Below, piece by piece: positions 42,901-45,900 of a stretch of 64,000 nt of DNA (position 1 is the first letter of the stretch; every line of letters begins with the position of its first letter). The stretch lies in the NCBI RefSeq assembly GCF_045679555.1, contig NC_092096.1:28094364-28158363 (forward strand). The letters run 5' to 3'. Under the pieces are notes generated by a model. It saw only the letters and a program-made list of their open reading frames with translations, did not search any database and had not been told where the DNA came from. The translations under genes and the position numbers were made by a program. The DNA comes from Salvelinus alpinus (Eukaryota; Chordata; Actinopteri; Salmoniformes; Salmonidae).

Positions 42901-45900
42901 GAATGAGGGAATTATTTTATAGACATAAAAAGTATTTGGTTGTAATTGTAACGTTGCAGGATGGGCCAACCATCCTCCAGGAGATTCCAAGAGAGCTACT
43001 GGGTGTGCAGGCTTTTGGTCCAGCCCTACTCGAACACAACCCTATGTAAAAATATCTGCTGCTCAACAGGACCTTGATAAGCTGACTCTGGTGTTTGAAC
43101 AGGGTTGGATCAAAAGCCTGCACACCGGCCTCCCGAGTGGCGCAGTGGTCTAAGGCACTGCATGGCAGTGCTAGGTGCGTCACTAGAGACCCGGGTTCAA
43201 TCCCGGGCTGTATTACAACCGGCCGTGATCGGAAGTCCCATGGGGGGGGGTCATGTTTCGGGGGGACGCATGACTCGACCTTCGCCTCCCGAGCACGTTG
43301 GGGAGTTGCAGCAATGAGACAAAATCAAAATTGGGGAGAAAAAAGGGGAAACATTTTTGTTCTAAACAAACTGCACTCCCAGTAGCTCTCCAGGTGGAGG
43401 GTTGACGGAGCACGTGTTTTATACAGTAGCTCTCCAGGTGGAGGGTTGACGGAGCACATGTTTTATACAGTAGCTCTCCAGGTGGAGGGTTGACGGAGCA
43501 CGTGTTTTATACAGTAGCTCTCCAGGTGGAGGGTTGACGGAGACCGTGTTTTATACAGTAGCTCTCCACGTGGAGGGTTGACGGAGCACGTGTTTTATAC
43601 AGTAGCTCTCCAGGTGGAGGGTTGACGGAGAACGTGTTTTATACAGTAGCTCTCCAGGTGGAGGGTTGACGGAGCACGTGTTTTATACAGTAGCTCTCCA
43701 GATGGAGGGTTGACGGAGCACATGTTTTATACAGTAGCTCTCCAGGTGGAGGGTTGACGGAGCACGTGTTTCATAGAGTAGCTCTCCAGATGGAGGGTTG
43801 ACGGAGCACGTGTTTTATACAGTAGCTCTCCAGATGGAGGGTTGACGGAGCACGTGTTTTATACAGTAGGCTATCAGGGCAGTATTTTACTTTGTGGGGA
43901 GTTAAGTGCCTAGCTCAAGGCCACAACGGCAGGAGATGGTGTATAATACATGGGATCAGAGAGCAGCAGCCTTCCATTGTCAATACCAGTGATAATAATG
44001 AAGGTTATTTTGTTTCCTTGCGTCATACAACACAATCCTCAGTCACCTTATTTGCCCATGATGTTACATGCCTTTTTTTTTTTTTTAGGGGGGGGGGGGG
44101 GGGGACAAGTGGCTAAAACAGTTGTAACGTGTCAGCAATAGGGGGAAGAGGGCGGGACTTACCAGAGAGATGGGGTGGGTCTTCAGCTTGGTCCATGGGA
44201 TCTGTCAATGAAGACAAGGAATTAGAGTCAGCCAGTCAAGCTCAGATAAGTGACAGTAATATTGGTTCAATATCATACACCTGCAATCTAGTAGGCCCAA
44301 CAACATGGGCACAGCCAAAATATGATCATATTTTCTTGTATTTAACCTATGTGCTAAATAGTCCCATATTCCTTATATATTTTTCTGAAATACATATGAA
44401 TGTGTCTATTCCTGAAATAAATGTAATCGCTGTGAATGTAAATCAGCTGAAATTAATGGAATTGGGCCGTTCCAAGAGAAAAAATCAAGGAGACAGTCTA
44501 GAGAAGCAGTCAGAGTGCCAGCACATTCCACTCCTCCCCAAACTACACGAATCCCTCTGAGCGGACCCTCTTAATCATGCCCGTGTCAAATCAAATAGCT
44601 TTTACGCCAAAGAGTAATCTGCAGATTTGGGCATGTTCATCTTCCCCCACAACGAGTGACTCCCCGTTAAAAGGCTATAAACACTGAAATAAATATTTAG
44701 ATAAGTGGCGCTAATTGAATTACTACACTAAAACTGTATTTGACTTCTTCAGTCATTGTACTGAAATGGTTTAGCAGAGCCTGCACCTGTAGGTGAGGTT
44801 GGAGCAGAGATTTAGACAAGGAAATTAACAGTTTTTGGGTGCCTGAGTTGTGGGTTTGTGTGTGTCCGCTCCAATGAGGATGGGCATGTGTATTGTAACA
44901 GAAGATGGTGTGCGCAACTGTATGCGTGTTGGCATCTAAATCAGACAGGCTATAGAAGAGATCACTCTCTCTAAGAGTTAGAGGAGTTAAACTACAGCTG
45001 GGGGACCCACACACCCTCTTTTTCTCTCTAGATCAGTGGGAGCTATGAGCTGCAGGTTCCGCTTGGCCCAAGCCCACCCCGGCTAAGTGAGCCAAGCCCA
45101 CTATTTCACTGTTCCTATTGGCTAGATGACCAGAACTCTGTGACGCACTGGCAAAACGCCAAGGACTAACGTGGTGGCCTCTAAGCTGATCCTGATCCAA
45201 GATGACCTGCTGACTGACTCCCAGCTCAAAGCCATGGTCCAGTACGCCAAGTCACTCAGCGAGGCCATGGACAAGTCTGCTCAGCAGAGGAAGAGCATGG
45301 CCACCGAGGACCAGGTACACAGACGCGCATGCAAGCACGCATTACCTCAATGATTGGGCCATTACGACTGCAGCATTGCACCAAGGACAATGCACAGCGA
45401 GTGTGACACATCAATAAAGCTAAGTTAGTGACACTCAATGGGCCTCGTCTAGGAAAACAGCCAGACAGACTTAACTTAAGGCAATTTCAGAAGACAAAAC
45501 TTTATCCTTTCACAGTTTCATCGCTGGGCGGCTCCCCACTCTACTTGTTAGAATATATTGCCTGCTATGTAAAAGGGAAGGTCATGAGACAGGGATAAGA
45601 TGAAGTTTCGAGACAGCAGAGATAAAATACAAGAGAGAATCATTAGCGCAAAGAAAACAGAGGGGGTTTCAGAAGAGGAAGGAGAATGCTGGTAGTAGAG
45701 ACCTGAGTAACAGAGTTTGTTGTTATGCTCCAGGGAGTGTCAGATGATGTGCGCATACAGACATTCACACACACAGTTCCTCTCAGTGCACTTCTATATC
45801 CACCGCTATCATTACGATGGAGACAAGAGAGAATGAAAGAGAGTGGGAGAGAGTGAGATTGGGGGTGAGAGAGGGGGGTGGGCAGGGGGAGAGAGATGAG

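Follow-up and report, generated by a model that had tools for sequence, protein, structure and literature searches.

An inverted copy of bltp3b exon 7 in intron 2 of the same gene in Salvelinus alpinus, very probably a templated insertion

Intron 2 of the bltp3b gene of Salvelinus alpinus contains an inverted, degraded copy of exon 7 of the same gene. The window analyzed here is a stretch of 64,000 nucleotides (NC_092096.1, positions 28,094,364 to 28,158,363 of the forward strand). At 45159-45321, its plus strand matches the sense strand of exon 7 together with seven nucleotides of intron 7. We consider it very probable that the copy is a young templated insertion, made in inverted orientation within the gene and free of selected function, and it is most likely an ordinary, harmless scar of DNA copying or repair. 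An earlier note, made from the sequence, had drawn attention to this copy, and its observation is right and careful. The locus that it gave, 45158-45314, is the correct one, but the start lies one base early and the end seven bases short. The features are as follows.

57058-57015, minus strand: exon 1, from the ATG (splice sites and frame)
46178-46016, minus strand: exon 2 (splice sites and frame)
44202-46015, minus strand: intron 2, 1,814 nt, which holds the copy (boundaries of exons 2 and 3)
45159-45314, plus strand: inverted copy of exon 7, corresponding to exon nt 2-168 less deletions of 2 bp and 9 bp (BLASTN, pairwise alignment)
45315-45321, plus strand: start of intron 7 (7 nt, GTACACA) with the donor dinucleotide, copied together with the exon (alignment)
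44201-44163, minus strand: exon 3 (splice sites and frame)
41394-41303, minus strand: exon 4 (splice sites and frame)
41105-40916, minus strand: exon 5 (splice sites and frame)
40817-40677, minus strand: exon 6 (splice sites and frame)
40677-44201, minus strand: stretch with exons 3-6, which total 462 nt and are in frame (exon lengths and phases)
37835-38002, minus strand: exon 7, the live exon and probable template, 168 nt, 56 codons, phase 0-0 (splice sites, translation, Pfam PF24917)

When 45000-45500 was compared with the whole window by BLASTN, a single non-self match was returned, plus/minus to 38001-37828, with 239 bits and E=3e-65; the best of 500 dinucleotide shuffles of the copy reached 34.4 bits. 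The alignment has 174 columns, of which 161 are identical, 2 are mismatched and 11 are gap positions. Relative to the live exon, the copy carries a 2-bp and a 9-bp deletion, it includes the exon 7 donor, and it lacks the acceptor. The two deletions, the donor and the missing acceptor had been described in the earlier note, which also proposed the alignment as a check. Two TGCTG direct repeats flank the 9-bp deletion (as read from the BLASTN alignment), the pattern that slippage would leave. The longest uninterrupted run is a perfect 114 nt, and the earlier estimate of roughly 150 nt of near-perfect complementarity is therefore fair. In a self-BLAST of the window (E up to 1e-6, low-complexity filter on), the copy and exon 7 are second by score among 10 inverted pairs, and they alone overlap one of the seven exons mapped here. 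Other inverted pairs of the window are longer, such as one of 1.5 kb (13430-14944/21575-23117, 88% identical); a minus-strand frame at 21841-22269 resembles, by eye, a Tc1-type transposase.

The host gene was mapped over seven exons, placed by splice sites and frame, and later exons lie outside this map. The 279-residue product of the seven exons scores 618.1 bits against Pfam PF24917 (BLTP3A_B), over profile positions 1-277. This profile does not separate BLTP3A from BLTP3B, and bltp3b is the name chosen in the earlier note, which fits the human protein. As GT and AG sites mark the end of exon 2 at 46016 and the start of exon 3 at 44201, the copy falls into intron 2, with 695 nt between it and exon 2 and 958 nt between it and exon 3. 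It is antisense to the gene's transcript and lies upstream of exon 7 in it, with a spacer of 7,156 nt. The gene family, host intron, orientation and spacer of about 7 kb that had been proposed are borne out, and the exon map confirms that exon 7 comprises 56 codons in phase 0-0. No solved structure related to the 56-residue exon 7 peptide was found at E up to 1, and no structured RNA family reached its gathering score in 36000-47000.

The gene and its surroundings also contain several repeats. About two thirds of intron 6, which lies upstream of exon 7, is taken up by a 38-bp minisatellite of 37-42 copies (38259-39988), and the intron also holds 2.3 copies of a tandem 153-bp unit (40266-40613). 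A 44-bp tandem repeat (43380-43869, 11 units) is found in intron 3. Elsewhere in the window, there is a 30-bp tandem repeat with 37 units and 98% matches (600-1710), and minus-strand frames at 34906-36306 resemble, by eye, a broken reverse transcriptase.

How might the copy have arisen? The simplest route would be a template switch or the repair of a break. A tract of about 174 bp from exon 7 and its donor would have been copied in the course of replication or break repair and then joined in reverse 7 kb away, into intron 2 of its own gene. Because part of intron 7 is kept and there is no exon 6 junction, the copy was made from DNA or unspliced RNA, with DNA the most likely template and unspliced RNA a possible one. 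The copy would now be neutral and be removed along with intron 2. Its polarity as an insertion, its youth and its neutrality are all probable from the sequence. We count the lowered Pfam fit in favor of this explanation: the Leu-to-Gln change in the copy costs 3.5 bits, and together with the 9-bp loss it costs 22.4 bits (199.1 to 176.7).

Several other routes were considered, and most were rejected. A processed retrocopy or class 1 (LINE-mediated) insertion does not fit the 7 nt of intron 7 that were kept, the unjoined exon 6 and the absence of poly-A. No poly-A tract was seen by eye at either end of the copy, and the copy contains no AATAAA, the nearest listed being at 45413. Retrocopying of an exon 6-7 RNA that had been partly spliced was rejected because the upstream flank is no more similar to the end of exon 6 than random tracts of the window are (a fraction of 0.52 score as high or higher in a local and 0.12 in an anchored comparison); similarity between the upstream flanks of the copy and exon 7 is likewise at background (0.56). 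No transposon ends were recognized, as 44700-45800 contains no direct or inverted repeats of at least 12 bp. As for transposon-borne capture, 45000-45500 has no other match in the 64-kb window, the sole sequence used in this comparison. A functional duplicated (alternative) exon is contradicted by the antisense orientation, the missing acceptor and a plus-strand stop a few codons upstream, in frame with exon 7. A new exon on the sense strand was rejected as well: donor-like sites there number three, of which two lie within the copy and the third next to it, and all are weak (3.6-3.8 on a rough weight matrix).

The ends of the copy leave some room for interpretation. Directly next to the copy, at either end, lies one unit of an imperfect 18-nt direct repeat, with a score that 1.1-1.2% of random pairs reach (best at 17-18 nt, with 8 lengths tried). 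It could be a decayed target-site duplication, though an unconvincing one after 8 lengths. Downstream, a 250-nt comparison of the flanks gives a score reached by 2 of 300 shuffles (0.7%); among random tracts, 4.9% reach it when compared with the intron 7 flank and 0.7% when compared with the copy flank. We did not accept longer homology into intron 7, since similarity in the first 60 nt downstream is at background (0.83); a longer, badly decayed copy may nevertheless have reached into that intron.

Exon 6 offers an observation of its own. Within intron 6, the 153-bp units and the stretch adjoining them (40227-40613) contain three degraded copies, all in sense orientation, in which the last 52 nt of exon 6 come with 3-18 nt of intron, as well as two 27-nt pieces. 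Their donors score 5.7-6.4, versus 2.2 for the true exon 6 donor (rough weight matrix). Together with the exon 7 copy, this suggests that exon pieces have been copied at least two times in this gene.

The two substitutions among 163 ungapped sites correspond to 1.2% (Poisson 95% range 0.15-4.4%). There are no synonymous differences from exon 7 over about 35 retained of the exon's 37 synonymous sites. One substitution is the Leu-to-Gln change, and the other is Asn in the copy versus Lys in the live exon, which the earlier note had already remarked upon. Of nine residues tried at this position, Asn gives the best Pfam score (202.7 bits), whereas the other eight, including Lys, give 198.9-199.7. 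Because Asn is preferred by the family among the residues tried, the live exon is probably the one that changed: the copy probably retains the older Asn codon, and exon 7 probably changed to Lys after the copying event. This evidence is modest, as a third-base change of a Lys codon gives Asn in two of three cases. What makes the locus attractive is that a tidy local inverted copy probably preserves an older codon of a conserved exon, and that it would date the Lys change in the live gene to after the copying event.

The family-preferred Asn could also be read as a trace of another source, and the earlier note had raised the paralogue from the salmonid whole-genome duplication (ohnologue), rather than bltp3b itself, as the donor of the exon. 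An ohnologue kept similar by tetrasomy is conceivable, and close pairs are not rare: in the rainbow trout data of PMC6553544, for pairs prefiltered at 85% protein identity, 28% of disomic and 62% of tetrasomic pairs exceed 95% DNA identity. However, mean identities in the same data are 91.3% (disomic) and 95.0% (tetrasomic), compared to 161 of 163 ungapped sites here, and zero synonymous differences over about 35 sites have P=0.03 at a dS of 0.1 and 0.005 at a dS of 0.15. An ohnologue origin is therefore unlikely, and with no synonymous difference to account for it is also unnecessary.

A young insertion of exon 7 from bltp3b itself is thus our preferred reading, but it could still have consequences for the RNA. 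According to the earlier note, the antisense copy might pair with exon 7 in the pre-mRNA, mask it and cause its skipping, or invite A-to-I editing. Thermodynamically, the duplex is allowed. With its 114-bp perfect run, it has a predicted energy of -350.7 kcal/mol, versus -54.8 and -59.5 for the single strands alone and -398.1 for a perfect partner, and an effect on the RNA is physically possible. The exon 7 donor scores low (4.5, versus 8.2-10.5 for exons 1 to 5 and 2.2 for exon 6; rough weight matrix). On the other hand, transcription of the copy precedes that of exon 7 by 7,156 nt, which sets pairing in competition with the removal of intron 2, and at usual rates this intron may be spliced out while the spacer is still being transcribed. 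Moreover, dense editing would presumably do harm in an exon that is coding and conserved. In NEIL1, an exon paired with its upstream intron is edited (PMC4053975). The same source finds non-Alu editing sites enriched within 1-2 kb of edited Alus, which bears only indirectly on distance. Overall, we regard such an effect as decidedly unlikely. Were the copy RNA paired with exon 7, it would illustrate how a single mutation can set up a duplex between exon and intron, and with it editing, skipping or circular RNA, in one step.

If the copy paired with exon 7, the loop would contain exons 3-6 (462 nt, 154 codons, in frame) and intron 6. As these exons are enclosed and in frame, backsplicing or the joining of exon 2 to exon 7 are sharper predictions than exon 7 skipping. 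The copy would then act as a looping element that places the exon 3 acceptor close to the weak exon 6 donor and yields a circRNA of exons 3-6 or an in-frame join of exon 2 to exon 7. If true, a single copying event would have made a young isoform switch in which one of the arms is a coding exon, but we judge this highly improbable. Mouse Uhrf1bp1l is named in a circRNA table, given there without exons (PMC10797004), and a literature search with four spelled-out forms of circRNA names of the gene gave no match.

The distribution of the differences raises the question of whether the copy is older than it looks, with gene conversion by exon 7 keeping its 3' part identical. Of the 174 columns, the first 57 contain the start of all four differences (one-sided P 0.012, two-sided P 0.023, for only four events and a test devised after they had been seen), and the final 114 nt match throughout; the downstream flanks also show weak similarity. 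However, a complex junction and slippage at the TGCTG repeats could account for two or three of the differences, and the first 60 nt downstream are at background. The clustering may reflect a conversion tract or an error-prone end, but conversion of an old copy seems very improbable to us. An assembly artefact or chimeric read is exceedingly improbable: inverted chimeras do occur in long-read data and a single sequence was analyzed, but substitutions and deletions private to the copy, two sharp ends and a codon for the family-preferred residue would not be expected of a chimera.

Among the matches listed, judged by title and the start of the abstract, we found no inverted exon copies in introns, which does not prove that none is in print, and in the templated-insertion literature, judged in the same way, no inverted intronic exon copy. 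Searches for relatives gave 19 pattern matches in viral contigs and 72 in prokaryote genome contigs, with 0 confirmed in either case, as expected of such collections. Related systems are nevertheless known. Class 2 templated sequence insertions, thought to patch a DNA break, are described in PMC5110952 as templated elsewhere, without poly-A and without a clear target-site duplication. The copy resembles them in being templated and in having no poly-A (by eye) or AATAAA; the imperfect repeat at its ends may be a target-site duplication, though an unconvincing one. They are said to use a distant template, often via RNA, whereas the template of the copy belongs to the same gene, at a distance of 7,156 nt, and includes an exon-intron junction. 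Reverse-complement template-switch mutations (PMC7954356) and MMBIR insertions (PMC8421209) likewise place the reverse complement of nearby sequence so that an inverted repeat is formed, but the former are short-range according to the title of that source, whereas here 163 bp come from 7 kb away. NEIL1, in which an editing complementary sequence in intron 5 pairs with the exon (PMC4053975), shares with bltp3b an upstream intron complementary to an exon; in NEIL1, exon editing has been described, whereas bltp3b has a near-perfect match with a 114-bp run, 7 kb away, and a predicted duplex alone. In dmrt1 of Solea senegalensis (PMC7605655), as in bltp3b, exon sequence has been copied into the gene's own introns, and one exon piece is broken. 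There, however, a duplication of about 10.4 kb repeats exons II and III and is accompanied by mRNA isoforms, whereas bltp3b has a single inverted exon without an acceptor.
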